The notes beneath the pieces were generated by a model. That model searched no databases, had not been told where the DNA came from, and saw nothing but the letters and a program-made list of their open reading frames with translations. From positions 205,363 through 246,837 of the forward strand of contig JAKLGA010000013.1 in the NCBI GenBank assembly GCA_022710975.1: a DNA stretch of 41,475 nucleotides, written 5' to 3'. Shown piece by piece: positions 9,669 through 32,881 of the stretch. Within the stretch, counting starts at the first letter, position 1. The number at the start of each line of letters is the position of its first letter. The DNA is from Myxococcota bacterium (GTDB lineage Bacteria > Myxococcota > B64-G9). A program made the position numbers and the translations under genes.

Positions 9669-9703
9669 AGATTCTCTTCGCGTCTACCGACGCTCGAGAA
9701 TCT
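9669..9703 (-). terminator. Second hairpin abutting the C11 peptidase stop codon
   Basis: AGATTCTC (9669-9676) pairs with GAGAATCT (9696-9703), enclosing an inner GCGTC/GACGC stem with a TACC loop. It overlaps the last bases of the minus-strand stop codon (9702-9704). It may stabilise or terminate transcripts of the minus-strand gene. Confidence 0.5.
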
Positions 9704-11981
9704 AGTGGACCTGTAGCATCGTCTCCCAGGTGGTGTCGGCGGCCCAGCGCAGGTTGGTGGTGTTGTAGGCCGAGTCGAAGCTGTCCTCGCAGGGGAAGTA
9801 CACGTTCATCCCGCGCGCCTGGGAGTGGCCCGAGCGGTGGAGCTCGTAGAGCACCACGTCCTGGACCGCGGCGATGAAGGCGTCGTACTCGGCCGTGTGG
9901 GCCGGATCCCGGAGCTTGGCCTGGGTCATGATCTGCTGGATGTCCGCGTGCGGACTGCACCAGCCCCAGAAGCAGCCGTAGAACTCCAGCGGGTTGCAGA
10001 GCTGGGTCCAGGTGGCCGAGGACATGGCCTGCAGCCCGGTAGCGGCCGGGTCGGCCGCGGCGGCCAGCGCCTCCATGCCGGCCAGGTCGTAGACCGCCAT
10101 GGTGAGGTCGCTGTAGCTCGCGTCGTACAGGTCGAAGTACGTGTCCGCGGCGAGCTGCCCGAAGGCCTCGGGCGTGGGGTCGGCGAGCGCCTTGAACTGC
10201 TGCAGCAGCGGGGTGTAGTTCCAGCCCTCGCCCGGCTCGGTCTCCTGGGAGGCGACCATCACCTCCACGTCGTCCTTGACCTCGTAGGCCACCTCGGCCA
10301 TGCCCATCAGGCAGGCGTCGAAGGCCAAGAGGGTGAGGTCCTGGCCGGCGATGGCGTCGCCGATCTCGCTGGTGTACATGCAGCCCCCGCCGTTCGTGTC
10401 GTCGCAGCACGCGGCCCGCACCACGCCCGGCTGCTCCATGGCGCGTTGCCTGCGCCAGCCGTCGCCGTGGTCGGACAGCAGCAGGTAGTAGTCGGTCGGG
10501 CGCCCGGTCTGGGTGAGCGCCTTCACGTCCTCGATGAAGTGCCGCAGGGTGTCGGGGTTGCTCATGTCGAGCTCCTGGTTGCCGTTCGCCGTCAGCCCCA
10601 TGGCCGGTCCGGCGAGCCGGGTGCTCGAGTTGCTGTGCACCTGGTAGAAGCGGGTGTCGTTGGTGCCGCTGTGATCGATCACCACGTACACCTCGAGCCA
10701 CTCCACGGAGTCGATCCCGGCGGCCTCCATCTCGTGCCAGTCCCCGGTGATCCACTCGTCCAGGTTGTTGTCCGCGTCCAGGTACATCATGATCACCACG
10801 TCCTGGGTGCAGGTCCACACCCCGGGCGCGCAGGCTCCGGCCAGGCAGCTGTCCCCGCTGGTGCAGCGATCCCCGTCGCTGCAGACGGTGCCGTCGGGCT
10901 GCGCCTCGGTCGCCACGCAGGCGCCGGACTGGCAGGACTCGGCCAGGGCGCACGGGGAGCCGGTGGCGCACGGGCTGTCGTCCGCCACGGCCTCGAGCTG
11001 GCAGCCGCCCGCCGCCTCGGCGCAGGTGTTCTGCTGGCAGGCGATGCCCAGGTCGGGGCACTCGAGCGGCGTGCCCGGCCGGCACTGGCCCGAGCCGCAC
11101 AGCTCCTGGCCGTTGCAGACCAGGCCGTCCGGGCAGGGCAGGCCCTCGTTCCGGGCCTGGACGCGGCAGCGATCGCGCTCCTCGTCGCACACCCCGAGCG
11201 AGCACGGGCCGTCGATGGCGCTGCAGTCGACCGGGGCGCCGGCCTGGCAGACGCCCGCCAGGCAGTACTCGGCGCCGTCGCAGAAGAGCCCGTCCTCGCA
11301 GGCCGCGCCGTCCGCGAGATCCACCCGATCGCAGGCCCGGGCGTCCTCGTCGCACACGCCGGCCCGGCAGGCCTCGTCGAGCCCGCTGCAGTCGACGGCT
11401 CCCGCGGACACGCACGCGCCCGCCTGGCAGCTCTCGGCGCCGTTGCAGAAGAGCCCGTCCTCGCAGGCCGTGCCGTCCGCGATCGCCGGGTAGACGCAGT
11501 GCAGCTCGGGCGCGGCCACGCAGGTGCCCGGGTTGGTGTGGCAGGCGTCCGGCTGATCGCAGCGCATGTTCACGCACGGATCGAGGTTGCAGACCCCGTC
11601 CGCGCAGCCGAACTCGCAGCGGCTGCGCGAGGGCACGTACTGGCAGGCGCCGTCCACGCAGGCCCCGCCGGGCAGGGGGGTCACCAGGGTCTCTCCGTCC
11701 GCGCAGGTGGGCGCGGGCGGGCTGTCGCAGGCGCCGCAGCTCCCGCCGCAGCCGTCCGGACCGCACGCCTTGCCGCTGCAGTCGGGGGTGCAGGCGCAGT
11801 CGCACGCCTCCCAGGACCGGCCATCCTCGGCGCAGGCCTGCTCGCCCAGCCGTCCGGGCTCGCAGGGACAGTCGCGCGTCTCGCCCGGCTCGCACAGCGC
11901 GGGCTCCCCACCGCCGTCGCAGGCCGCGGCGAGCAGGGACAGGGTCAGCAGGCAGGCCAGGCAACTGCGCAGCGCGGTCAT
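9702..11981 (-). CDS. Clostripain-family (C11) cysteine peptidase lipoprotein with Cys-rich region
   Basis: A 759-residue predicted lipoprotein (signal peptide ending LLAAAC). Residues ~25-395 are extremely Cys-rich, with repeated units of the form CEDGLFCNGAESCQAGAC and DCSxLDxxCxxGVCDE. The C-terminal ~360 residues are a peptidase C11 domain: it opens with MYLDADNNLD, carries His505 in LLLSDHGDGW and Cys557 in AFDACLMGM, the His/Cys dyad of clan CD (caspase-like) peptidases. C11 enzymes cleave after basic residues and often self-activate. The start ATG at 11981 follows AGGAGAGG; the longer frame has no signal peptide at its start. The Cys-rich part probably projects the peptidase from the outer membrane. 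Confidence 0.88.
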   Translation of the reverse strand: MTALRSCLACLLTLSLLAAACDGGGEPALCEPGETRDCPCEPGRLGEQACAEDGRSWEACDCACTPDCSGKACGPDGCGGSCGACDSPPAPTCADGETLVTPLPGGACVDGACQYVPSRSRCEFGCADGVCNLDPCVNMRCDQPDACHTNPGTCVAAPELHCVYPAIADGTACEDGLFCNGAESCQAGACVSAGAVDCSGLDEACRAGVCDEDARACDRVDLADGAACEDGLFCDGAEYCLAGVCQAGAPVDCSAIDGPCSLGVCDEERDRCRVQARNEGLPCPDGLVCNGQELCGSGQCRPGTPLECPDLGIACQQNTCAEAAGGCQLEAVADDSPCATGSPCALAESCQSGACVATEAQPDGTVCSDGDRCTSGDSCLAGACAPGVWTCTQDVVIMMYLDADNNLDEWITGDWHEMEAAGIDSVEWLEVYVVIDHSGTNDTRFYQVHSNSSTRLAGPAMGLTANGNQELDMSNPDTLRHFIEDVKALTQTGRPTDYYLLLSDHGDGWRRQRAMEQPGVVRAACCDDTNGGGCMYTSEIGDAIAGQDLTLLAFDACLMGMAEVAYEVKDDVEVMVASQETEPGEGWNYTPLLQQFKALADPTPEAFGQLAADTYFDLYDASYSDLTMAVYDLAGMEALAAAADPAATGLQAMSSATWTQLCNPLEFYGCFWGWCSPHADIQQIMTQAKLRDPAHTAEYDAFIAAVQDVVLYELHRSGHSQARGMNVYFPCEDSFDSAYNTTNLRWAADTTWETMLQVH

Positions 11982-12009
11982 GTCCTCTCCTCCTCGTCCA
12001 CCCCGGCAC

Positions 12010-12038
12010 ATTAACCCCCCGGCGGGGGAGCCGGGCAA
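12010..12038 (-). promoter_or_regulatory. Putative promoter for C11 peptidase gene
   Basis: Read on the minus strand: TTGCCC (12038-12033), 17-bp spacer, GTTAAT (12015-12010), with the -10 about 28 bases upstream of the ATG at 11981. Confidence 0.4.
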
Positions 12039-12068
12039 CCCTCTCCTCCCGGGCGCGCGCGGCGCCGC

Positions 12069-12074
12069 TTGACA
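12069..12074 (+). promoter_or_regulatory. Candidate -35 element (TTGACA) for the small-gene cluster
   Basis: A perfect TTGACA occurs 90 bases upstream of the 63-residue gene, but no good -10 lies at 16-18 bp (GGACGC-like sequence instead). It is listed because all other perfect intergenic TTGACA motifs here precede genes; an alternative or activator-dependent promoter is possible. Confidence 0.3.
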
Positions 12075-12163
12075 CCCAAATGGGGGTTGTGGGACGCTCT
12101 CGCCACGAGCTCGCATGGAGGAGTGCGGTGGTCCCGGGGTGCCGGGGCGGGGAAGGGGACGTG

Positions 12164-14039: not shown

Positions 14040-16628
14040 TTGGACAAGCACCCTGCGGAGGAGGAGAGCAGCCTGGCCTTCCGACCCAAGATCGTGACCC
14101 TGGTGGTCGGCATGTGGGTCGTGGTGGCCACGTTCTCCTACCTCTTCATCCAGTTCGTGTTCGACTTCTCGCTGGCGCAGTCCACCGCGATCACCCTCTT
14201 CCTGTGGGTCGGCGGCCTGGTCGCCTGCGCCCTGAGCCTGGCGCTGGTGCTCCGCATCCACAGGCCCTACGTCGACTTCCTGCGCCAGCACGCCAAGGGG
14301 GGCAAGGTGCCCGAGGCCGTGCTGGCCCGGGCCGTCTCCGCCGCGCCGCGCATGCCCATGCTGGCCTCCCTGGTCGGCATGCTCGGCCCCATCCTGTGGA
14401 TGGTGGCCACGGGCATGCTGGCCTACGCCTTCGCCGAGGGCGTGCGCATCCAGATCCCCTTCCTGATGGTGCTCGGCCTGTTCGACGCCATGCTGATGGG
14501 CTCGATGCTGTTCATGCTGCCGCAGGTCTGGACCCGCGGCGCCCAGGAGCTGCTGGCCGGCTACCGCAGCGACGCGCTGGCGGGCCAGGGCATGTCGCTG
14601 ACCTGGAAGATCGGCTCGCTGGGCCTGATGCTGGCCACGGTGCCCACCCTGCTGGTCGGCGCCATGAGCTTCTACACGGCCGACCGGCTGCTCGACAAGC
14701 AGACCGGCGAGGCGCTGCAGGAGCGCCTGCTGGACCTGTCCTTCATCCTGGACGCGCAGCTCACCGCCGGCACCGGCCGGCTCGAGCTGGAGCGGCGCCT
14801 GAGCGTGGAGGCCGCGAAGCTCGGGCCCAAGATCTACCTGCACCTGGGCACCGGGGACGGCGCCTTCTACCGCAGCGAGCGCTCCGAACCGCTGCCGCCC
14901 GGGCTGTACGAGCGTATCCTGGCCGCGCGCGAGCAGAGCCTCAAGGGGACGGTCGTGGCCTCCGCCCGGGCCGGGACCTTCGCCTACGCCTTCTCGGATG
15001 ACGGCCGCACCGTGGTGATCGCCCCGGTGCGCTCCACCGACGAGGCCACGGCCCAGAACCTCCTGTTCCTCATCGTGGGCATCACCCTGTCCTCGATGCT
15101 GGTGGCCGGCGTGGTCGGCCTGATGTTCGCCCGCAGCCTGGGGCAGAAGCTGCGGACCATGTCGGCCCTGGCCGAGGAGGTGGCGCACGGCAAGCTGAGC
15201 CGTGACGTGCGCGTGGTGTCCGACGACGAGCTGGGCGTGCTGGGCGCGAGCCTGTACGGCATGACCGCCAACCTGCGCCGCATGGTGCGCAGCGTCACCG
15301 CCGTGGCCGGGCAGATCGCCTCCACCTGCGGGCAGCTCCAGGTCAAGGCCGAGGCCATCTCCCGCGGCGCCGAGCTGCAGTCCCACGCGGTCGGGGAGAC
15401 CTCGCGCTCGGTGGGCGAGCTGGATACCAACATCCAGAGCGCCTCCGACAACCTCCAGCGCCTGGCCGAGTCCGCGCAGGAGACCGCCGAGGCGGCCCAC
15501 AAGGTGGGCGAGAGCTACAACCTCATGCTGACCGAGATGGCCGCCCTGCAGGACACCGTGGAGCGCACCGGCCAGATCGTCGGCCGCATGGTGGGCTCCT
15601 TCCTGGAGGTGGCCAGCATCATCGCGGAGCTGAGCGACGGCGCGGCGCGCTCGGCCACCTCCATGTCGGAGATGGATCGCTCCATCTCGGCCGTCACCAG
15701 CCGCGCCGGCGACACGGCCCAGATCGCCCGCAAGGCCATCGAGGCCGCCAGCGACGGCGCCGCCTCGGTGCGCCGCACCATCAACGGCATGGACCGCATC
15801 GTGGGCTCGACGCTGACCGCCTCGGACGTCATCCAGGGCCTGGGCAACCGCATCGAGGCCATCGGCAGCATCCTGGGGGTGATCGAGGACATCGCCGATC
15901 AGACCAACCTGCTGGCGCTGAACGCGGCCATCATCGCCGCCCAGGCCGGCGAGCACGGCCGCTCCTTCGCCGTGGTGGCCGACGAGATCCGCTCGCTGGC
16001 CGAGCGCACCAGCACCTCCACCCGCGAGATCGGCCAGATGATCGCCGACATCCAGGAGGGCTCGGGCCAGGCCATCAAGGCCATGCGCGAGGGCATGGGC
16101 ATCGTCAACGAGGGCGTGTCGCTCGCCAAGCAGGCCGGCGACTCGCTCAACCAGATCCTGACCAGCGTCCAGCGCGCCACCCAGAACGTCGAGGAGATCG
16201 CCCAGAACACCGAGTCGCAGGCGGCCGCCAGCGAGCTGGTGACGCGCGAGATGGCCCAGGTGGCCGAGATGGCCGGACGCATCAGCCAGGCCGCGGTGGA
16301 CCAGACCCGGGCCGGCCAGCAGCTCCAGGAGGCCTTCCAGGGCACGCTGCAGACCACCCGCTCGCTGAGCTCGCGCGTCAACCAGCAGGCCCAGGAGAGC
16401 CGCATGGCGCTCTCGGCCGTGGCGGCGATGAACGAGGCCGCCAGCCGGGCCCACGAGGCCATGCTGGCGCAGTCCACCATCTCCGAGGGCATCCTGGCCG
16501 CGATCCACCGCATCGAGCAGGTGGCCAAGGAGCACGCCGGGGCGGCCGCCGACATGGGCGGCGGCACCCAGACCCTGGGCGAGAAGAGCGACCGCCTCAA
16601 GGAAGAGATCGCCGGCTTCGACGTATGA
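14040..16628 (+). CDS. Methyl-accepting chemotaxis protein with multi-spanning N-terminus
   Basis: An 862-residue chemoreceptor. About five membrane segments occupy residues 18-212, an extracytoplasmic region of ~120 residues follows, then a last membrane segment (~338-360), a HAMP domain (~362-415) and a long coiled-coil signalling domain to the C terminus. The hairpin tip [22 protein letters not shown] is clear. At the positions equivalent to Tsr Glu385 and Arg388 (trimer contacts) it has Ile632 and Gln635. The start is TTG 14040, 6 bases after GAGGAG. The stop overlaps the ATG of the giant CHAT lipoprotein gene, so the two are co-translated. No CheA/CheW or CheR/CheB genes are nearby. Confidence 0.9.
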
Positions 16629-19600
16629 GCCCGCTCCCTGGAACCCGCCCGGGCGCGCGCCATCGGGCGAAGGGCGGTATCGCGGCGCGGCCGGCAGGGT
16701 GGCTGGCGGGCTGCGCCCTGGCCGCGGCGTGGCTGCTGGCCGGCTGCGCCCCGCCCCGGCCCGACGCGCTGGCCGGCGCGACCCGGGCCGGCCCGCGGGG
16801 CGGGGGCGAGTTCCAGCCACGCCAGCTCAGCGCGCACCTGGCCGACGAGCTGTCGCCGGTCGTCGACGCGCGGCGCGGACGCCTGCTGTACGTATCCACC
16901 CAGGGCGGGGATCGCGACGTCTGGGCCCGCCCGCTAGCGGGCGGCTCGCCGGAGCGCCTGACGCCCCACTCGTCCGACGACTTCGACCCGGCCCTGTCCC
17001 CGGACGGCGCCCGGCTGGCCTTCGCCAGCCTGCGGCTGGACTCCAAGGGTGATCTGTTCCTGGCCGGGCCCGACGGCGAGCGGCCGGAGCGCCTGACCAC
17101 CCGGGAGACCTCCGATCGCCAGCCGGCCTTCTTCCCGGACGGGCAGCGCCTGGCCTTCACCTCGTCCGCGGGCGCCGAGCCCGAGGCCATCCACAGCCTC
17201 TCGCTCGAGGACCGCCGGCGCGCGCGGTTGAGCTCCCGGCCGGGCTTCGATCCGGCCGTGTCGCCCGACGGCGCGCTGGTGCTGTTCACCTCGCGCACGC
17301 CGCCCGCGCCCGGCGGCGGCGCCCCGGCCGTGGCCTGCCTGTGGCTGCACCGCCTGGCGGACGGGCTGGAGCGGCCGCTGCACGCCTGCGTCCGGCCGGA
17401 GGGCTTCGGCACGTTCGCCCGCCTGGACGGGGCGACCTGGGTGGTCTGGAGCCGGTTCCAGGACGACACCAACGGAGACGGCCAGGTGGACCTGCAGGAT
17501 CGGCCCAGCCTGTGGCGCCAGCGGCTCGTGGACTTCAGCGGGGACACGCCGCAGGTCGGCCCCCTCACGCCGCTGACGCCGGGCACGTCCGCGGACATCA
17601 CCCCGACGGTGCACGCGGACGCGCTGGTGTACGCCTCGCGCCAGGACGAGGATCTCGACCTGTGGACGGCGCCGCTGGCCGGGGCGCTGGCGCCCGTGGC
17701 CAGCGGCCAGGAGGCGCTGCGCCAGGCCGAGCAGCTCGAGGACCCCCTGGAGGCGCTGTTCCTGCTGCGCCGCTGCGCCGCGGACCGGGCCGGGCTGCCG
17801 GACGCGGACGCCTGCGCGCTGGCCGAGGCCGGCCGCCTGCTGACCGCGCGCCGCACCGCGCAGGCCGCCGAGGTCTACGCCGCCCTGGCCGCGACCGCCA
17901 CCGCGCCCGAGGTGCGGGCCGAGGCCGGCCTCGGTCAGGTGGAGGCCATGACCCAGGCGCGCCTGCCCCTGGGGCTCACCCCTTCGCAGCAGCGCGAGCG
18001 CGCGCCCGAGGGAGAGGCCCTGCTCGCCCGCCTGGAGGGCCTGCCGGGGCCGCCGGCGGCCCGGGCGCTGGCGCGGGCCGACATCCAGCGCCGCATCGGC
18101 CGCTGGGGCGAGGCCCTGGCCGAGCTGGAGGGGCTGCTGGCCGCGTCCGGGCTGTCCGACACCCAGCGCGCGCGGGCGCTGCTGCTGCGCTCGGAGGTGC
18201 TGAGGGTGCTGGGCAACCCCGAGGCTGCCAGGCAGAGCCTGCTGGAGGTGCTGGCGCGCCACCCCGCCCAGCGCGTCGAGCGCCTGGAGGCAGCCCGCCA
18301 GATCCTGGACCTCGCCCGGCAGGGTGGTCCGCTGGCCGGCGCGGGCCAGGGCGAGGTCGAGCGGCTCGAGGAGCTGGCCCGCGACCACGCGGAGCTGCCG
18401 CTGCTGGCGGCGCTGGTGCGGCTGGAGATCGGCCGACTGCACCGGGCCGCGGGCCAGCCGGAGCTGGCCGCGCGCGACTTCCGCCGCGTGGAGGCCGACT
18501 ACCCGCAGGAGACCGAGCTGTGCGCGCGCGCGTTGCTGGCCCTGTCCGATCTGGCCGAGAAGCGGGGCGACGTGGGGCAGGCGCTGGATCACGCCCAGGA
18601 GCTGCTCGAGCGCTACCCCGACTCGGTCGAGCAGGCGCGCAAGGCGCGCCGGCGGGTGCGGCAGCTGGCGGGGGCCTACGCAGAGGACCTGGTCAGCACC
18701 GGGGAGACCGGGTTGGCCATCAAGGTCTACCGCCAGCTGCTCGAGCAGGATCCCGACGACGTCGTGGCCCACCGCCAACTCATCGCCATGCTGGCCGCGC
18801 GGGGCCGGGCGGCCGAGGCCGTGGCCACCTACCGCGCGCAGGCCGCGGCGCGGCCCGGGGACGATCTGTCGATCTACCTGCAGGCCCTCGCGCTCACCTA
18901 CCTCGAGCCGCCGGAGCACTTCGACGAGGCCGAGGACCTGCTCGAGCAGGCGCTGGCGATCAACGAGCAGTCGGCCTTCGCGCACCAGACCCGGGCCTGG
19001 CTGCTGGAGCAGCGCGCCCACCTCGCGGGCGGCGACGAGGAGCGGCTGATGCGGGCGGCCGAGGAGTACCAGGCCGCGCTGGCGCTGCTGGACACGCGGG
19101 CCTACCCGGGGGCCGCGGCGGATCTGGAGCTCAACCTGGGCAACGTCTACCACGCGCTGGGCAACCACCGGCGCGCCCACCAGTTCTACAAGCGCCGCGA
19201 GGCCATGGAGATCCCCTTCGCCCTGCCCGAGCGGCGGCTGGTGTTCCTCGAACAGTTCGGCCGCTCGGCCTTCCTGTGCGACGAGCTCGAGGACGCCGCG
19301 CGCGCCTACGCCGCGGCCGCGCCGCTGGCGCGCGAGCTGAAGCGCACCCGGCGCCTGCCGCGCATCCTGGCCGGGCAGGCGGCCGCGCTCCAGCTCCAGG
19401 GGCGCCACGCCGAGGCGGCCGAGCTGTTCCGCAAGGTGTGCAAGGCCTACGGCGACTCCGGACAGCGGCAGCGCCTGGCGAGCTGCCAGCGCAACGTGGC
19501 CTACAACCTGTACAAGCAGGGCCGCGCGCGCGAGGCCGCCGAGGCCTTCGCCGAGGCCAGGAGCCTGCTGGAGCGCCACGGCGCCGCCGGCGCGGACGAT

Positions 19601-22600
19601 GAGCGGGTGGTCGAGGTGGGGCTGGGGGCGGAGGCCTCCCGGGCGGCCTCGGGCTTCGATCGGGCGGGCGAGCTCAACTTCCTGTCCACCTACCAGGCGC
19701 GCCTGTTCCGCGAGGCCGGCGACACCGGGCGGGCCGCCGCCGCGCTGGGGCAGAAGCTCGAGCTGCTCGAGGCGGAGCTCGGCGCGCGCCGGCCGGCCTC
19801 GGTGCTCCTGGATCTCGCCATCGCCACCAACCAGCTGGCCGTGCTGCAGCTCGAGCAGGGCCAGGAGCTGGCCGCCGCCCGGGGCTTCGCCCGGTCGGGC
19901 CGGCTGTCGGACGAGGTGCAGAACGCCCAGGGCATCTCGGCCAACGCGCTGAACCGGCTGCGCCTGGCGCTGACGGGCCGGGCCGGGCTCGAGCCGGGGG
20001 CGCTGGTCGCGGAGCTGGAGGCGGTCCGGGCGCGCCTGGCCGCGGGGCTGAATTCGTCCGAGCGCGTCTGGATCGAGCTGCTGGCCGGCCTGGGCGCGGC
20101 CCGGGTGGCCGCCCTGGACGCTGACCCGCGCCCGCCCGCCTACCCCGCGGGGGCGGCGCCGGCCGAGCGGCTGCGCCTGGCCGGAGAGGAGCTCGACCGC
20201 GTGGCCCGGGGCCTGCGGTCCGCCGAGGCGGAGCTGCGAGAGGCGCTGAGCCGGGCCCGCGCGCTGGCGGCGGGCAGCCGGGACGGCGCGCGGCTCCTGG
20301 TGCAGGTCGCCGCCAGCCTGGCCGGGGTGCTGACCCGGCTCGGTCACGAGGAGGAGGCCGCCGCCCTGGTGGCCGAGGCCCGACGCCTGGCGGACGGGCT
20401 GGCGCTGTGGGAGGTCGCCTGGCGCCTGCCGGACGGCGAGCCCGCCGCCCGGGCGCGGGCGCTGCTCGAGCTGCCTCCGACCCTGACGCGGGTGCGTGGC
20501 GACGGCGCGGCCGAGGAGGCCGGCGGCCGGCTGTTCGGCGGGCTCCTCCGGCAGGCGCTCGCCGAGGGGCGGCCGGACGAGGCCCTCGGCTGGGCCGAGG
20601 CCTGGCGCCTGCGGCTGCGGGTCGAGGCCCTCGGCCCCGGCGACGTGCGCGCCGGGTCGGAGGCGGATCGCGCCTGGCTGGAGCAGCTCGAGATGCACGC
20701 CCAGGTGCTCGTCCAGGGGCTGGACAGCCTGGACCCGGGCCTGCCCGAGAAGCAGCGGGCCGAGCGGTGGGCCGAGGCCGCGGCGCGCCTCCAGGCCTGG
20801 CGGGAGCTGCGCGACCGGGGCGGCCAGCCTCGCGAGGTGCTGCGCGAGATGCTGCAGGGCCGGGCGGCGGGGGTCGAGGAGCTCGGCCGGCTGCTCGAGC
20901 CCGGCGAGGCGCTGCTCACCGCCGCGCGCCTGGCCGACGGGCTGGCGCTGTTTTTGCTGGACGCGAACGGGCTCCAGGCCGAGTGGGTGGAGGTCTCCCC
21001 GGCGGAGCTGAACGCCGCCCTCGGGCGCCTGACCGGGCCGGACCCGGCCCAGGCCTCCGGCGCCCGCGCCCAGCTCTCCGCCTGGCTGCTGAAGCCGTTC
21101 GAGGCGCGCCTGGCGGGCTGCCGCAGCCTGCTGGCCGCCACCGACGAGCTGGGCCTGTCTCCGGCGCTGCTGGTGCTCGGGGGCAAGGCCCTGGTGCAGC
21201 TCATGCCGGTCGCCCAGCTCGGCGCCGCCAGCGATCTCCGCTGGGCCAGGCGCTTCCGCAGCGTGGGGCAGGAGCGGGCGCTGTGGGTGGGGGCCTCGCC
21301 TCCCAAGGCGGTGGGCCGCGCGCTGCTGGCCGGCTACGGGGCCCTGAGGGAGCTCACCGGCACAGCCGAGAGCGTGCAGCAGGGCCTGGCCGGGGCGGGC
21401 CTGGCCGTCTGGGGGACCCGGCTGCTGGCGTCCCGACCTCGCCCGCTGCGCTCGTCCTTCGAGCTGGACGCCGCGCTGGGCGGCCTCGGCGGCGTGCCGC
21501 TGGGCGGGCTGGCCGGGGCGCCGCTGGGGCACGGGCTGTGGATCCTGGCCGGGGGAGAGGCGCGGACCGGCGCGGCCCCGGGCGAGGGGCTGTCGCTGGC
21601 GCTGGCCGGGGCCGAGGTGCCCAGCGCCCTGGTCCTGCCGCTCGAGCTGAGCAGGCCCTGGGCCGCCGGGCTGTTCGAGGGGCTGATCGCCGGGCTCTCG
21701 GCCGAGAGCCCGACCGAGGCGCTGCGGGGCGCCCTGGACAAGGCCCTGCGGGAGCGCCAGGTGGGCTGGCAGGCGCTCCTGGGCGTCGAGCTGCGCGGCG
21801 ACCCTGGCATGGGGGAGGCCTCCCGCAAGGCCTTCGCCCAGCGCGAGATCGCCTCCGCCATCAAGCTGGCCATGCAGACCTACCAGGACAAGCGCTGGGC
21901 GGATTCTCTGGGCGCCTTCCTCAAGGTTCGCCGGCTGGCCGTGTACCTGGGCCAGACCGCCCTGCTGCCCAGGCTCGACGCGGCCATCGTGCAGAGCGCC
22001 TTCCAGCTCGGCGAGTACGCGCTGGCCGTGGAGGTGGAGCGCCGCATCCTGACCGCGGCCGAGGCCACCTCCGACAAGCTGGCCGCGGCCCGGGCGCGCA
22101 ACTTCCTGGGCGTGCTGCTCTCCAAGGCCGAGGAGCACCCGGCGGCCCTGGGCGCGCTCGCCCAGGCCGTGGGCGAGCTCGACGGCCTGTCCCAGACCGC
22201 CGAGGCCGCTCAGGCGCAGGCCAACCTGGTGCTGGCCCTGGACGCGGCCGCGCGCTACCCCGAGTCGGTCGAGGCCGCCCGGGGCGCGCTCGCGCGCTTC
22301 AAGGCGCTGGGCGACCGCGAGCAGGTCCTGCGCATGCTGCGCACGCTCGGCGCCACCCACCTGCGGCGGCTGAACATGACGGCGGCGGCCCGAGGCTGGT
22401 TCGAGCAAGCGCTGGCGCTGGCGCGCGAGCTGGGCGTCCCGGCGCGGATCGGCGAGGTCAGCCTCGATCTGGTGCGCACGGAGCTGGCCGCGGGGGCCTA
22501 CGAGGCCGCGCTCGGCCGGGCCAAGGAGGCGGAGGGCATCTACCAGCAGGCGGGCGACCGGCGGGGCCAGGCCGAGGCGGTGCTCGAGCAGGCCGGGGCC

Positions 22601-24679
22601 CTGTGGTACCTGGGCGAGTACCAGCGCGCCTTCCTGGCCCAGCGGCAGGCGCTGACCTTCGCCGAGGAGGCCGAGGACACCCTGCTCGGCATCCGCGCGC
22701 GCAGCCTGGGCGGCCTGATCGCGCTGAACCTCGGGGACCTGCCGGGCGCCGAGCGCGCGCTGGACGCGGCCCTGCAGGCCGCCCGCCGGATGGGTTTCCG
22801 CGCCGAGGAGGCCACGCAGCTCAACAACCTGGGCATCGTGGCCCGCGAGAAGGGCGATCTCGACCAGGCCGTCGAGCGCTTCGCCGCCGCGCTGGCCATC
22901 GACGAGCAGCTCAAGAGCGTGCTCGGGCGGGCCTACGATCTGCGCAACCTGGGGCTGGCCGAGCAGCTCCAGGGGCGCCTGGAGCAGGCCACCCTGCACC
23001 TGGAGGAGGCCCTGCAGCTCAGCCGCTCGGTGCAGGACGTGTTCAACGAGGTCAAGGCCCGCGTGGGCCTGGCCGCCCTCGAGCTGGCGCGGGGGCGGCT
23101 CGAGCAGGCGGCGGATCACGCCCAGGAGGCGCACCGCCTGTCGGTCCAGGCCGGGCTGCGGGACGTGTCCTGGCGCGCGCTGCGCACCCTCGGCCTGGTG
23201 GCCGAGCGGCAGGGCCGGCTGCCGGACGCGCGGGCGCACTACGCGGCGGCCATCGGGCTGGTCGAGGAGATGCGCGCCAGCCTCAAGGTGGAGGAGTTCC
23301 GCTCGGGCTTCCTGGACAGCAAGTTCGATCTCTACGAGGACATGATCCACCTGCTGGTGGAGCTGGGGGAGAGCGAGGCGGCCTTCGCCTACACCGAGCG
23401 CTCGCGCGCGCGCGGCTTCCTGGATCTGCTCGCCAACCGGCAGATCGAGGTGGGCATCGCTGGCGACCAGGTGCTGCTGGAGCGGTTGCGGCGGGCCCGC
23501 GAGGAGCTGGTCCCCCTGGGCGAGGCCGTGCGTCGGGCCGCGCCCGAGGAGCGCGCGGCGGCCGAGGCCGACCTGGCCAGGGCCCGCCAGGAGTACCTGG
23601 ACCTGCTCGAGCAGATGCGCCGCGCCCAGCCCGATCTGGCCGACTTCGTCGAGGTGCGGCCTGCCTCGGCCGCCGAGATCCAGGCCCGGCTTCCCGAGGG
23701 GGTGGCGCTGCTGGCCTACTACGTCACCCGCCGGGACGTGCTGGTCTTCGTGCTGCGCAGAGATGGGCTGGGTGCGCTCAAGCTGCCCATTTCTCGCGAG
23801 GAGCTGGCCAGGCGCGTGGCCGAGGTGCGCTCGCTGATTGAGGCCTTCTCCCCGGTCGAGGCCGAGCTCACGGCGCTGTACCGCGATCTGGTGGCGCCGC
23901 TGGCGGACGATCTGGGCGGGCTCCAGAGCGTGGGCGTCCTGCCCCACGACGTGCTCAACTACCTGCCCTTCGCGGCGCTGATGCCCGGGCCGGGCGTCTA
24001 CTGGGGCGACCGGGTGGAGCTGTTCGTGGACCCCTCGGCCAGCGTGCTGATGCAGCTGCTGCACCGCGAGGACGCCCGCTTCGGCCCGGCCGGCGGGCTG
24101 GTCGCGCTGGGGAACCCCGAGCTCGGGGATCCGGCGTTGGCCCTGCCGTTCGCCGAGCAGGAGGCGGCCGCGGTGGGCTTCGAGCAGGCCGGCGGCGCGG
24201 TGCTGGTGGCCCAGGACGCCTCCGAGGCCGCCTTCCGCGCCCAGGCCGGCCGGGCCGATCTGCTGCACCTGGCCTGCCACGGCAGCTTCGATCCGCAGAG
24301 CCCGCTGTTCTCCTCCCTGCTGCTCACCCCGGGCGACGGCCAGGACGGGGCGCTGACCGCCCTCGAGGTCTTCGGGCTGGCGCTCAGCGCCCGCCTGGTG
24401 ACCCTGTCCGCCTGCCAGTCGGGGCTGGGCAGCCTGCGCTCCGGCGACGAGATCATCGGCCTGAACCGCGCCTTCCTGTCGGCCGGCGCGGGCGCGGTCC
24501 TCTCCAGCCTTTGGCGGGTGAGCGACGTGGCCACCGCGGTGATGATGAAGCGCTTCTACCGCAACCTGCGCCAGGAGCCGCCCGCGGCGGCGCTCCGGCG
24601 GGCGCAGCGCCTGGTGCGCCAGTACTTCCCGCACCCGGCCTACTGGGCGCCCTTCTACCTGCTGGGCACCTGGCGCTAG
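16625..24679 (+). CDS. Giant lipoprotein: PD40 - TPR - degenerate CHAT - TPR - CHAT peptidase
   Basis: A 2,684-residue predicted lipoprotein (lipobox LLAGC, Cys41). Residues ~60-355 are TolB/PD40-like propeller repeats ([14 protein letters not shown] type). Residues ~360-1420 are mostly TPR/helical. Residues ~1423-1730 form a CHAT-like fold without catalytic residues. A second TPR array (~1735-2350) ends in [14 protein letters not shown], the usual lead-in to CHAT. Residues ~2356-2684 are an intact CHAT domain with His2552 in LACHGSF and Cys2597 in LSACQSG, ending in [15 protein letters not shown] domains are caspase-like clan CD peptidases, often acting on partner proteins sensed by their TPRs. 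The ATG overlaps the MCP stop (ATGA). Length is far above usual TPR-CHAT proteins (about 900-1,200). Substrate unknown; surface or periplasmic location is inferred. Confidence 0.88.
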
Positions 24680-24731
24680 CGCCTTGTGCGCGGCGCTGGA
24701 ACGGATGCAACCTCATGGCAGGGAGGATGGC

Positions 24732-26825
24732 ATGCGGAATGGATCAGCGTTTTCTGGGTGGATCGCGCGCTCATGCGCGCTCTGTTTTCTGTTCGTCGCA
24801 CCCGCCTGTGAGCTGGGCCCATCTCATCAGGTCCCCTGTCAGCTGAGGCTCTGCCCGGATGGTGCCTGTTCCGAGTGCTGTGCGGCCGAAGACTGCGGCG
24901 CTCTGGACGTCTGCCTCCTCGGAAGCTGCGTCGCGAACACGCTAGGCATGCCCTGCGATTCGGCCGAGGACTGCGCCGGACAAGTGGTCTGCGATCTCGA
25001 CCTGGGGATCTGCGTCAGACCTTGCGAAGCGGATTCGGACTGCGCGTCGGAGTCCGTTCCCTTTGGAGGCGACCGGCTGTGCTCGGGTGGCGGGGTTTGC
25101 GGCTTCCAGCCGTGTGCTGAGGATGGTGAATGTCGCGCCGGGACCGTGTGCTTCGAGGACCGGTGCGTCTCCGGGAGCGGCGTCCTGCGCGTGCAGGTGA
25201 TCGATGGGCGGAGCGGAGGTCCTCTCGCCGGTGCGGCGGTCTCGGTCGAACAGCCCTCCCTGGCCGCCGTCACCGCGCGGACGAGAGAGGACGGCGTGGC
25301 CCAGTTCCTCTCGCTCGACCTCGCGGCGTTGCCTGGCAGGGTCGGGGTGCGGGCCGAGGGCATGACTCCGCTGGAGTCGCTGGAGGCGGCGACCAACCGG
25401 ATGGAGCTGACCCTCGAGCCAGGGGTTCTCGACGGCACGGGTGGTATCCGCTCGGCGCTGGACTTCGCGTCCGTGCCTTGCGCTGCGGGCCACCCCTGTG
25501 AATCGAGGTGGGGGCTCGCGGGACTTTCGATCCCCTTGAATCCCTTCGCGCGCCTTCCCCAGAGGGCTCTCGGAGAGAACGTTCGGATGTACATCGTCGT
25601 GGGGGGCACCGGTGTCGACCGCGGATTCCCCGGAGGAACGGTGGTCGGGATGGGCCAGACTTGGTTCCACGAGTACGCCGAACCGACGGGACCAGTCGGA
25701 CGACGAACGCTCTGGGGTCTCGGGCGCTACCTCGACGTGGCCCAGCTCATCCAGAGCTTTGGCACGATGGTCCAGGACTATACCGCCGGCGGCTCCAGCG
25801 CCGCGACCATGGTCGCCTTGACCTTCGAGAAGACCCTGCGCGGCGCCGGCAGCGGCCTGGTGACCGACCTCGAGATCGCGCCGGTCGGCTGGGTCGTGGA
25901 CACGGACGACGTCGACGGCGACGATCGCCGGGACGACTTGGTGCCGGACTACTCGGCGCTGCCGCCCTCGTCTGGTGGTCCGCTCGCGATGCCCGAGCAC
26001 GCGTCCAAGGCCTTGTTCGTACACGTTCCGGCCTTGCCCGCAGCACCTGCAGGTGGCTTCACCTATGACGCCGTCCTGGTCGTCGCGGCCGTGGCTGTGC
26101 CCGGACTGGGCCTGGTGCCGCTTGGGCTCGGCGCGGGTGCTGACCGGCAACCCGCGCTCGATGCGGTCGCAGATGGCTTCATCGAGGACATCACCGTCCA
26201 GACGGCGGACATCGGAGGCAGGCTACCTGCGGAGACCTCGCAGCGGCTGGTGATCGCGCTTGCCTTGGGCGGTGGGCCCTGCGGCGGGAACGGCGTGGAT
26301 CGCCCCTGGGCCGTGGTTGGTCAGGTGTTCCAGTTGCCCGCCTTCGAGGGGGAGCTGACCTTGCGGCCGTTCTCTCAACCGCCCTCGGTCAGCCTCGACA
26401 CACTCACCGGGGGCGTCCAGATCTCCGGCCTGTCAGCCGAGGTGGGCGCCCTGGCTCTCCTGGTTCACGCTACCGAGCAGAACCTGTGGCAGCTCCTGTC
26501 TCCACCGCAGGAGGGCACGCTCATGCTGCCCGCGCCGCCGCCCGGCCTGGAGAGCATGGACGGGGTGGTGCTGGCCGGGCTGGAGTTCGCCGACGGAAGG
26601 ACCTACCAGGAGCTGCTCGCAGGCGAGGGAGTCGCTCTCGGGGAGCTCCTGCTCGGCCTGGACGGCTTCAGCCTGGCCTGGTCGGAGGGTGCGGAGCCGG
26701 ACTGTGGCTGCGGGACGGGTGCGGCCGGCGGTGGGCTCTGGCTGCTCCTGCTGGCCGCCGGGGCCGGGGTGCTGCGCTGCATACACCCTACAACGCGTCG
26801 GGCTTCGCGGAGTCAGACTCAGTAG
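24732..26825 (+). CDS. Cys-rich lipoprotein with Ig-like domain and MYXO-CTERM-like tail
   Basis: A 697-residue protein. The signal peptide ends at VAPAC, a lipobox-like site. Residues ~30-145 hold many Cys in CxxxxDC-type units, followed by a carboxypeptidase-regulatory-like beta domain (VLRVQVIDGRSGGPLAGAAV, ~152-235). A long beta-rich body of unknown fold follows. The C terminus has DCGCGTG, an Ala/Leu hydrophobic helix and an Arg-containing tail, resembling the MYXO-CTERM sorting signal. The ATG at 24732 follows GGAGG by 5 bases. Third codon positions are less GC-biased than in neighbours, hinting at a different history. Its last 38 bases overlap the 3' end of the convergent PEGA-like gene. 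Confidence 0.75.
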   Translation: MRNGSAFSGWIARSCALCFLFVAPACELGPSHQVPCQLRLCPDGACSECCAAEDCGALDVCLLGSCVANTLGMPCDSAEDCAGQVVCDLDLGICVRPCEADSDCASESVPFGGDRLCSGGGVCGFQPCAEDGECRAGTVCFEDRCVSGSGVLRVQVIDGRSGGPLAGAAVSVEQPSLAAVTARTREDGVAQFLSLDLAALPGRVGVRAEGMTPLESLEAATNRMELTLEPGVLDGTGGIRSALDFASVPCAAGHPCESRWGLAGLSIPLNPFARLPQRALGENVRMYIVVGGTGVDRGFPGGTVVGMGQTWFHEYAEPTGPVGRRTLWGLGRYLDVAQLIQSFGTMVQDYTAGGSSAATMVALTFEKTLRGAGSGLVTDLEIAPVGWVVDTDDVDGDDRRDDLVPDYSALPPSSGGPLAMPEHASKALFVHVPALPAAPAGGFTYDAVLVVAAVAVPGLGLVPLGLGAGADRQPALDAVADGFIEDITVQTADIGGRLPAETSQRLVIALALGGGPCGGNGVDRPWAVVGQVFQLPAFEGELTLRPFSQPPSVSLDTLTGGVQISGLSAEVGALALLVHATEQNLWQLLSPPQEGTLMLPAPPPGLESMDGVVLAGLEFADGRTYQELLAGEGVALGELLLGLDGFSLAWSEGAEPDCGCGTGAAGGGLWLLLLAAGAGVLRCIHPTTRRASRSQTQ

Positions 26826-29763: not shown

Positions 29764-32361
29764 TCAGCGGCCGAGGAAGGCGCGCACCTCGGCGTGCAGG
29801 CCGGCCAGGCGCTCCTTGGCGCGCCAGCCCTCGGCCAGCCGCAGGAAGCTGCCCTTGCGGCCCTCGACCTTGAAGCGCTCGAGGACGCCGCGGTCCTCGA
29901 AGGTGGCCAGGGCGTTGTTCAGCACCTCGCGCGACAGGCTCTCCTGGAAGGAGATGTCGCCGGCCACGAACATGCGGCCGCCGCGCTGCAGCGCGGCGGT
30001 GGTGAAGTCGCGCTCGCTGACCGGCCGCTCGAGCAGGCTGTCGAGGTGCAGGGTGGCCAGCGCGTAGGCCTCCAGGAAGTGCTCCTGCAGGCCCCGGAGG
30101 AAACGCCGCAGCTCGACGCCCTCGGGCGTCTTGAGCACGAAGCCCTCCTCGAGCCGCAGCATGCCCTCGGTCTGCAGCTCGCCCAGCGTCTTGCCCAGCT
30201 CCTCGTCGAAGTACTTCTCCGAGCGGAAGAAGAACTCGTGCTTGAACAGCCGGGTCAGCGCGCGGATGCGCTCCTCGAGCGGCCCCCGCGGCACGGCCTC
30301 GACGGTGAAGCTCTCCAGCGCGGTGACCACCATGGCGGCGTTGACGAAGTGGTGCTGCAGGTTGTTGCGATAGTAGTCGAGCGCCAGCCGCCTGCGCGCC
30401 ACGGGCGCGTACACCAGCTCCGCGCCGGCGCTCTGCATGGTGAGCAGCCCGTCGTGGGAGAAGCGCGCGGCCGCCTCCGCCAGCGCGCGCTCGAAGTCGC
30501 CGAGCGTGGCCGACAGGCGCGCGTCGCGCCGTCGCACCCAGGCGATCAGCCAGCGGGCGCGGGCCACCAGCTCGGTGCGGGTCATGCCTCGCCGGCGGTG
30601 GGTGAGCAGGCTCATGGCCACCAGGGCCGAGGGGGTGACGGTGGCCACCGAGTTGATCTCGTACAGCACCCGGTGGGCCAGCGCCTGCACCAGCTCGCGC
30701 TTGCGCTCCTCGGGCAGGTCGCGCTCCTCCGAGCCGCGCTCGGCCAGGTACTCGCGCACGGACAGCGCCTCGCCGATCTGCACGTAGATCTTGCCGTACT
30801 TCGAGCGCAGCGCCTGGCTCGAGCGCAGCAGGCCGGCCACGTCCTCCTTGCGCTTCTCGCCGCCCGAGAGCTCGTGCAGGTAGGAGCGGCTCTCGACCAC
30901 CTTCTCGTAGTCGATGGAGATCGGCATGATCTGCACGTCGGGGCTGTCGCCCTCGAGGTAGGCCTCCACCAGCCAGGACAGGATGCCGAAACGGGGGGGC
31001 AGCAGCTTGCCCGTGCGGCTACGGCCGCCCTCCAGGAAGAACTCGATGGGGAAGCCCTCCTTCATCACGTGCCTGAGGTAGGTGCGGAAGACCACCGGGT
31101 AGAGCGCGTCGCCCTTGAAGGAGCGGCGCAGGAAGAAGGCGCCCGAGTGGCGGAAGATGGGCCCCATCGGCCAGAAGCTCAGGTTGACCCCCGCGGCGAT
31201 GTGGGGCAGGGGCACGCGGTACTTCAGGCAGAGCTGGCTCAGCACCAGGTAGTCCACGTGGCTCTTGTGGCTGGGGCAGAACAGCACCGGGGCCTTGCGG
31301 ATGGCCGCGCGGATGCGCTCGAAGCCCGCCTCGTCCACCACGAAGCCCTCGTACATCTTCTTCCAGAAGATGTTGAGCGTCGCGTTGAGCCCCAGCGGCC
31401 ACTGGATGCGGGGCTCGGCGGCGATCTCGTCGAGCAGATCGTGGGCGCGCTTCTTGAGCGCCTCGGTCTTCTGCGCGTCCCCCTGCGCCTCACCCTCCAC
31501 CTGCCGGACGATGTGGGTGTCGGCCAGGATCTCGGCCTTGAACTCGGCGTGCGGGCGGATGCGTGGCCCGGTCACGTCGTACAGCTCGAGCTGCACCTGG
31601 TTGCGCAGCGCCGCCTGCAGAGAGGCGGCCCGCTGGTGAACGTCCTCGTCCTGGTGCTGGCTCAGGAAGGCCTTGACGTCCAGCGGCTCGGACACCTTGA
31701 CCCGCGCCCCCTTGTAGCGCCGCAGCAGCACGAACAGCGAGCGCAGCAGACCCGGCTCGTGGGCCTCGCCGAAGATGGCGTCGGCCAGGTTCTTGTCCTC
31801 GCGCTCGGGGTGGACGTCCCAGACGATGATGTGCGGCACCAGGTAGATCGGCCGCGGCTGGGTGAGCTGGGTCTGGATCACGGTCTCCAGCAGGCTGGCC
31901 TCGGTGGCCGCCAGCGGGTTGGTCAGCGTGGTCGGCCGGCCCAGGAACAGCAGCGCCGCGCGACCGGCGGCCAGGGTGCGCGCCAGCTGACGGGCGGGCT
32001 CGGGCTCCTCCTCGTCCAGGCCCCCGGCGTCCTCGTCCCCCAGCTTGCGCAGGCGCTCCCACAGCAGGGAGATCGGCTGCACCAGCACCGGATCCAGCCC
32101 GTTGACGAAGCGCGCCAGCGGCAACCCGTGGTGTGTGCACACGTAGTTGAGGTACAGGAAGTTGATCAGGTTGGCCGAGCGGGACAGGTACACCAGGGTG
32201 CCCTGGCCGGACAGCTCCTTCATGCGCGCGATGGCCGCCGGCGGAAAGGGGATGGGGGCGAAGTAGCGGGCGAAGAAGGAGCGCAGGAAGGGCCCGTAGT
32301 GGTCGTGCATCGCCACGGGCGGCAGCTCGCCTGGCTGTTCCTGCGCGCTCCTCTCGTCCAT
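29764..32361 (-). CDS. plsB: Glycerol-3-phosphate 1-O-acyltransferase (PlsB)
   Basis: An 865-residue peripheral membrane enzyme that transfers acyl groups from acyl-CoA or acyl-ACP to sn-glycerol-3-phosphate, the first step of phospholipid synthesis. Block I is CPSHKSHVDYL with the HX4D motif His365-Asp370, block II is FFLRRSFKGDALYP, and block III is FFLEGGRSRTGKLLPP. Length fits the long PlsB type (E. coli 807 residues), with a large N-terminal region containing an acidic DEEEPEP insert. The ATG at 32361 follows GGGAGG; the upstream extension lacks support. Divergent from a small exported protein gene. Confidence 0.93.
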   Translation of the reverse strand: MDERSAQEQPGELPPVAMHDHYGPFLRSFFARYFAPIPFPPAAIARMKELSGQGTLVYLSRSANLINFLYLNYVCTHHGLPLARFVNGLDPVLVQPISLLWERLRKLGDEDAGGLDEEEPEPARQLARTLAAGRAALLFLGRPTTLTNPLAATEASLLETVIQTQLTQPRPIYLVPHIIVWDVHPEREDKNLADAIFGEAHEPGLLRSLFVLLRRYKGARVKVSEPLDVKAFLSQHQDEDVHQRAASLQAALRNQVQLELYDVTGPRIRPHAEFKAEILADTHIVRQVEGEAQGDAQKTEALKKRAHDLLDEIAAEPRIQWPLGLNATLNIFWKKMYEGFVVDEAGFERIRAAIRKAPVLFCPSHKSHVDYLVLSQLCLKYRVPLPHIAAGVNLSFWPMGPIFRHSGAFFLRRSFKGDALYPVVFRTYLRHVMKEGFPIEFFLEGGRSRTGKLLPPRFGILSWLVEAYLEGDSPDVQIMPISIDYEKVVESRSYLHELSGGEKRKEDVAGLLRSSQALRSKYGKIYVQIGEALSVREYLAERGSEERDLPEERKRELVQALAHRVLYEINSVATVTPSALVAMSLLTHRRRGMTRTELVARARWLIAWVRRRDARLSATLGDFERALAEAAARFSHDGLLTMQSAGAELVYAPVARRRLALDYYRNNLQHHFVNAAMVVTALESFTVEAVPRGPLEERIRALTRLFKHEFFFRSEKYFDEELGKTLGELQTEGMLRLEEGFVLKTPEGVELRRFLRGLQEHFLEAYALATLHLDSLLERPVSERDFTTAALQRGGRMFVAGDISFQESLSREVLNNALATFEDRGVLERFKVEGRKGSFLRLAEGWRAKERLAGLHAEVRAFLGR

Positions 32362-32417
32362 GCCCGACCTCCCTGGGACCCAGGAAGATCGCACATCTCG
32401 ACCCGGAGTCAACAGGC

Positions 32418-32446
32418 TTGGTTCGCCGGGCGGCCTTGGGTACAAT
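32418..32446 (+). promoter_or_regulatory. Putative promoter upstream of small exported protein and GatE
   Basis: TTGGTT at 32418-32423, 17-bp spacer, TACAAT at 32441-32446, in the 124-base divergent gap with plsB. The ATG of the small gene is 40 bases downstream. It may also drive gatE, whose start is 32 bases after the small gene's stop. Confidence 0.5.
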
Positions 32447-32485
32447 GGCGCCGGCCCGCCGCCGGGCGGGCAAGAGGAGGAGCGC

Positions 32486-32881
32486 ATGTCCCAGAAGGCG
32501 ACCCTGGTCGTCGCCGCCGTGTGCGGCGCCATCCTGGCCACGGTGCTGAACCTGAGCTTCCAGGTCGCGGCCGCCAGTCCGGACGAGGTGCCGGAGACGC
32601 CCGAGGACGCCACCAAGCCCGAGCCGGTGGCGCCCGACCGGCCGTGGGAGATGCTGGAGTTCGCCCAGCAGATCCCGCTCGAGTGGGGCACGGTGTTCTC
32701 CATCAACCGGGTGGAGAAGGCCGGCGAGTCCTACACCTTCTGGTTCCTGGCCATGGACGGCACGCTGCGCGGGGTGACCACCCGCGAGTTCACCGGCCCC
32801 AACCGCGGCTCGTTCTTCCCCGAGGTGTACATCATCAAGCGCCGCTGGAACGACCCCTCCACCCCTGGCCTGGAGCGCTAG
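32486..32881 (+). CDS. Small exported or membrane-anchored protein, unknown
   Basis: A 131-residue protein: the N-terminal hydrophobic segment (residues ~5-28) is a signal peptide or anchor, then an acidic Pro-rich linker, then a compact C-terminal domain of ~75 residues with alternating strands (GTVFSINRV, YTFWFLAMDG, TLRGVTTREF). It starts at ATG 32486 after AGGAGGAG. No family recognised. It lies 32 bases before gatE, which suggests, but does not prove, co-transcription. Confidence 0.65.
   Translation: MSQKATLVVAAVCGAILATVLNLSFQVAAASPDEVPETPEDATKPEPVAPDRPWEMLEFAQQIPLEWGTVFSINRVEKAGESYTFWFLAMDGTLRGVTTREFTGPNRGSFFPEVYIIKRRWNDPSTPGLER

Follow-up and report, generated by a model that had tools for sequence, protein, structure and literature searches.

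The largest gene in the 41,475-nucleotide stretch of DNA analysed here (the window) encodes a giant protein of 2684 residues (16625–24679, + strand) that carries, ahead of a C-terminal CHAT domain with an intact catalytic dyad, an inner region that by profile comparison and predicted fold is a complete TPR–CHAT module, with CHAT1-like and CHAT2-like halves as in separase and Csx29. The best overall explanation, to which a probability of roughly 0.6 is given, is that this inner domain (residues 1300–1735; whole module approximately 20522 to 21829) is a duplicated TPR–CHAT module that lost its dyad early and is now a folded pseudoprotease with a regulatory or docking role.

The anatomy of the protein, which has near full-length counterparts in related genomes, is close to certain: a PD40 propeller, TPRs, a complete dead inner CHAT module, further TPRs and a live CHAT domain, all encoded on the + strand. 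A lipobox-like motif, LLAGCAPP (16733–16756, containing Cys41; judged by eye), forms a predicted lipoprotein signal, and a cysteine closing the hydrophobic N-terminal segment is common to the other homologues covering that region; from its sequence, the protein is probably exported and lipid-anchored in the envelope. The signal is followed by a PD40/TolB-like β-propeller region (limits approximate, 16838–17674; Pfam PD40, 4.2e-18; partial NCBIfam TolB, 7.5e-17) and a first TPR region (approximately 18422–19864; Pfam TPR families). The inner module comprises a helical N-terminal part (20522–20890), whose counterparts in the C-terminal module are the ERSRARG helix and the coiled linker, a CHAT1-like half (20891–21259; placed by hhalign of the first halves, with residues 1300–1500 given, and by the model) and a CHAT2-like protease half from which the catalytic residues have been lost (21260–21829; hhalign). 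A second TPR region (approximately 21842–23341; Pfam TPR_12) leads to the C-terminal CHAT domain (23864–24667, residues 2414–2681; Pfam CHAT, 2e-61), whose alignment to the Csx29 catalytic region identifies His2552 (24278–24280) and Cys2597 (24413–24415) as the predicted catalytic residues. Profile alignment places R1599 (21419–21421) and G1644 (21554–21556) at the equivalent positions of the inner module, so that the His–Cys spacing is 45 residues in both.

Homology and predicted fold of the two modules

Compared as profiles, the inner and C-terminal modules align with a probability of 99.7% (E = 4e-27, 419 columns) when the distant homologue L083 is included, and with a probability of 98.9 (E = 3e-17) without it. 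The true pair scores 204; the best of 20 column shuffles reaches 18.2, the reversed control 21.1 and the PD40–TPR region 20.0. Chance resemblance of the two modules is ruled out by these controls, and the inner region is homologous to a bona fide CHAT domain. Each half matches its own counterpart only, with scores of 119.6 for the CHAT1-like halves (shuffled maximum 17.5) and 64.5 for the CHAT2-like halves (shuffled maximum 19.4), compared with 13.2 and 11.1 for the crossed halves. Without L083, the protease half alone scores 33.8 at a probability of 49% (shuffled maximum 19.4), so the bulk of the homology signal sits in the first half. Used as a query, a profile of eight inner sequences matches the C-terminal CHAT regions of the giant proteins themselves in their N-terminal half, with E values down to 2e-19, and also picks up other TPR–CHAT proteins.

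The likeness is nearly invisible to single sequences: BLASTP of the window's inner against its C-terminal half gave E = 0.16, and at thresholds as loose as E = 10 Pfam, including its curated CHAT profile, PF12770, returned no match to the inner region of the window's protein. The inner profile drew chance matches only from PDB sequences, tblastn in plasmids was unproductive, and a contig scan of genomes with the window's inner region alone produced 83 pattern matches and no relative.

Structure prediction with Foldseek, proposed as a check by the first-pass annotation along with the profile alignment of the two halves, and structural alignment gave an inner model resembling TPR–CHAT/Csx29 and separase. 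The AlphaFold2 model of the inner module (pLDDT 89.9, pTM 0.90; five models, 79.9–89.9) has a predicted caspase-like α/β fold of the CHAT/separase kind, and its secondary-structure elements follow the same order as those of the C-terminal model (85.5 and 0.82). In VIA-align it superposes on the Craspase TPR–CHAT structure 7y84 (Z = 27.0, rmsd 3.3, 347 residues), on Csx29 8eex (Z = 26.5, rmsd 3.5, 352 residues) and on yeast separase 5u1s (Z = 24.7, rmsd 3.5, 339 residues), and the C-terminal model aligns slightly better with the same structures (at best Z = 31.3, rmsd 2.6, 321 residues). Foldseek alone reached a best E of 1.6e-9 for the inner model, but with TM-scores near 0.5 and large rmsd. 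Two axonemal central-apparatus chains, 7n6g_1N and 9ijj_B, also align to the inner model (Z = 17–19), a hint that a ciliary protein may contain a CHAT-like domain.

The first-pass annotation had placed a catalytically dead second CHAT domain at 20891–21810. The peptides that it quoted lie where it put them (LLEPGEALL... from residue 1423, nucleotide 20891; an 11-residue peptide at residue 1718, nucleotide 21776), but a helical match at residue 1319 (nucleotide 20579) extends the module beyond those limits. Three of the pairings that it proposed, one of them joining a 10-residue segment to the FYLLGTW end and the others involving 18-, 27- and 13-residue stretches, are reproduced without a shift by the profile alignment. 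The strands of the dyad have to be reassigned: LWILAGGEA, taken for the His strand, is instead the Cys strand, in which LWILAGG pairs with LVTLSAC and the Cys equivalent is G1644, whereas ALVLPLELS, taken for the Cys position, pairs with the later AVLSSLWRV strand. The true His strand is a 20-residue segment that pairs with a 19-residue one, R1599 being the His equivalent. The earlier register is rejected: the profile alignments contradict it whether or not L083 is included, as do the places of the strands in both models, in which the His and Cys equivalents lie two to three residues past matching strands. The description as catalytically dead holds in that the dyad is absent; the replacing residues, R1599 and G1644, are not those originally named.

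The catalytic dyad and its distribution

In the inner copies of 18 aligned homologues (16 inner sequences, G007 and L083), the catalytic Cys is absent throughout and the His is present once, whereas both residues are kept in 19 of 19 C-terminal modules (15 alignment rows, G007, L083, and L081 and L084 by their invariant columns). The former His position is occupied by R, P, D, A, L, K, H or S, and the Cys position is equally varied; in L083 the two positions are Ser and Val, as read from printed sequences. The sole inner His belongs to G194 (ILYLGAHG), whose inner copy (L049:3789–4850, − strand) has the LGAHG motif and lacks the Cys; it is perhaps an intermediate stage of decay. By regular expression, the dyad is present in all 30 myxobacterial CHAT loci considered, a biased background since these are the best-scoring loci, with L052 and L055 as doubtful matches. 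The inner module thus lacks the His and Cys of an active CHAT protease and combines lost catalytic residues with a retained predicted fold and long conservation, as a pseudoprotease does; on sequence and model it is probably without peptidase activity.

With the conserved TPR part as the query, 18 of the 195 genomes searched in the phylum yielded the giant protein, which occurs in uncultured deltaproteobacterial and myxobacterial lineages; the contigs of its relatives are Deltaproteobacteria or Myxococcales MAGs, among others. The inner region is present in eight of the nine genomes of the window's family (its own included), and searches at the level of order and class returned the same nine genomes. 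Across the phylum, every one of the 17 genomes with a contig spanning that region keeps the module, the contig of G016 ending before it. A sequencing artefact is ruled out by the open inner regions in 17 phylum genomes. Scores against the inner profile vary, with none over 5 bits in G012 and G190, approximately 18–29 bits in G017, G188, G189, G193 and G194, and 45 bits in G192; where such matches are weak or absent, the inner region is recognized largely by position and alignment. The inner regions of L081 and L084 are too degenerate to align, and L080 and L082 are fragments.

Identity to orthologues is approximately 27–41% per 60-residue block in the inner module, compared with 36–78% in the C-terminal module; the lower inner identity also fits weak constraint on the sequence. 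Within the close family, some W, G, P and D residues of the inner copies are invariant.

Origin and role of the inner module

The clearest link between the two modules, and a good starting point for further work, is L083, a distant homologue from a Desulfuromonadales MAG in which the inner copy is still visible to Pfam (CHAT, E = 5.7e-19, 69.1 bits against a cut-off of 24). BLASTP pairs the inner and C-terminal CHAT domains of L083 at E = 1e-23, and the two TPR–CHAT halves of this protein match over approximately 840 residues at E = 9e-31, a value inflated by the TPRs. The 13 inner copies group together with support of 98/97 in a 41-row tree, which makes the catalytic loss look ancient; the tree is unrooted (drawn with a midpoint root), has five long end branches and is compatible with internal duplication and with fusion.

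The sequences most likely reflect duplication of the TPR–CHAT part of one ancestral protein, with early loss of the dyad. The first-pass annotation had likewise proposed a TPR–CHAT duplication after which the inner copy lost its catalytic function, a proposal that agrees with the profile comparison and its controls, the predicted CHAT/separase fold and the homologue L083. The same pseudoprotease might instead have arrived by fusion of a separate TPR–CHAT protein, not as a copy of the C-terminal module: the inner profile matches single-module TPR–CHAT proteins at 51–84 bits, a range comparable to the 24–102 bits for the C-terminal modules of the giant proteins. Such an origin is credible but unlikely, given that in L083 the likeness between the inner and C-terminal halves extends over both TPR and CHAT.

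For the duplicated pseudoprotease, a regulatory or docking role is marginally favoured, by analogy. Sensing of a partner would fall to the propeller together with the first TPR block; the dead module, situated between two TPR superhelices, would relay or block the signal or dock a substrate; and the C-terminal CHAT domain would then cut. The proposed relay is modelled on Csx29, in which, according to PMC10028731, the TPRs lead into CHAT1, a pseudo-caspase, and then CHAT2, the active caspase half; movement of the last repeat is transmitted to this half and switches its active site. In the giant protein, two units of this kind follow one another, the first with a dead protease half.

A serious rival, albeit an unlikely one, is that the module is a passive structural spacer without regulation or docking, maintained for the sole reason that the protein would break if a folded block were taken out of the middle of its TPR array. 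Fast divergence would suit such a spacer, as would the lack of conserved polar residues clustered where the dyad used to be, but the retention of the module in every phylum genome with a contig across the region and the persistence of invariant residues (W, G, P and D) in the close family argue against it. That the inner domain has kept a different catalytic or ligand-binding activity through other residues is very improbable: R182, D238, W255 and W340 (numbering of the first row of the alignment) are invariant in the close family, but there is no invariant Cys, His or Ser, and the invariant polar positions lie away from the former dyad.

Gene neighbourhood and known systems

An MCP-like gene with HAMP and MCPsignal domains (14040–16628, + strand; Pfam, 1e-39) overlaps the start of the giant ORF by 4 bp, and its counterpart adjoins the giant gene in six of the six other family genomes whose contig reaches that side. 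Of 12 distant loci tested, 10 have a DUF1318 (YdbL)-like gene immediately ahead of the giant gene (L046, L047, L048, L049, L067, L068, L070, L071, L072 and L084; the exceptions are L081 and L083), and in most of these a DUF748 (YdbH)-like gene comes before it. The YdbL naming follows Pfam matches of 1.5e-7 to 1.3e-3 in three of four small proteins, and the YdbH naming a match of 3.5e-6 in one of the large proteins; the majority of all these matches fall below Pfam's own cut-offs. The genome of the window has a ydbH/ydbL-like pair elsewhere, unlinked to the giant gene. PMC8593681 presents YdbH of E. coli as belonging to a redundant trio of proteins required for lipid homeostasis of the outer membrane, and a link of the giant gene to outer-membrane lipid transport is possible. 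Its position directly behind ydbH–ydbL-like genes in distant lineages and behind an MCP-like receptor gene in the window's family would fit an envelope role, which these gene-order links make directly testable. An extended version, in which each exported chain would hold four caspase-like folds (two CHAT1/CHAT2 pairs on two TPR superhelices) and the dead module would inhibit or relay to the live one in a periplasmic protease gated by the state of the envelope, is decidedly speculative and improbable.

Other genes in the window include one for a Peptidase C11 of the clostripain family (9702–12116, − strand), which we take to be another clan CD type protease; a 713-residue ORF directly after the giant gene (24684–26825, + strand), with a cysteine-rich start and a weak CarboxypepD_reg match; and a glycerol-3-phosphate acyltransferase gene (29764–32706, − strand), homologues of which adjoin the giant gene convergently in G002, G003, G005 and G006. 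No CRISPR gene was found among the neighbours examined.

CHAT proteases are bacterial relatives of separase, and a conserved tandem of dead and live modules in one chain would suit the study of how pseudo-caspases control live modules, here in a predicted exported protein as opposed to a CRISPR or cytoplasmic setting. Among the papers listed for the CHAT family, the titles and abstract beginnings disclosed no tandem dead/live CHAT chain, which is no proof of absence. Pseudo-orthocaspases and the inactive caspase domains of bacterial conflict systems are likewise caspase folds without a dyad (PMC6426788, for pseudo-orthocaspases, in extract), and passages of PMC7159879 describe inactive caspases as common effectors of vWA systems and an FtsH pair with an inactive first and an active second domain; these belong to other families and architectures, with no dead and live CHAT in one chain. 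The C-terminal 320 residues of the transmembrane anti-sigma factor DdvA (8rot, 8rw5) align to the inner model with Z = 20.4–20.6, but DdvA, as known here from PDB titles, has 991 residues, with one CHAT region aligned. Separase (yeast 5u1s/5u1t, human 7nj1) shares the arrangement in which a CHAT-like protease region comes after helical repeats, with Z = 23.0–24.7 for the inner model, and differs in being eukaryotic, in having one protease region and, according to excerpted text (PMC9729208), in being regulated by securin. Csx29/TPR–CHAT of the type III-E CRISPR system (Craspase) likewise combines a TPR superhelix, a CHAT1 pseudo-caspase and a CHAT2 protease; both modules of the giant protein align with it end to end, and the C-terminal dyad aligns with its dyad region, the Csx29 residues being H615 and C658 in the portion of PMC10028731 consulted. 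Csx29, however, has one module with an active CHAT2 and is tied to Cas7-11, whereas the giant protein has two modules, the inner of them dead, together with a propeller and predicted export.
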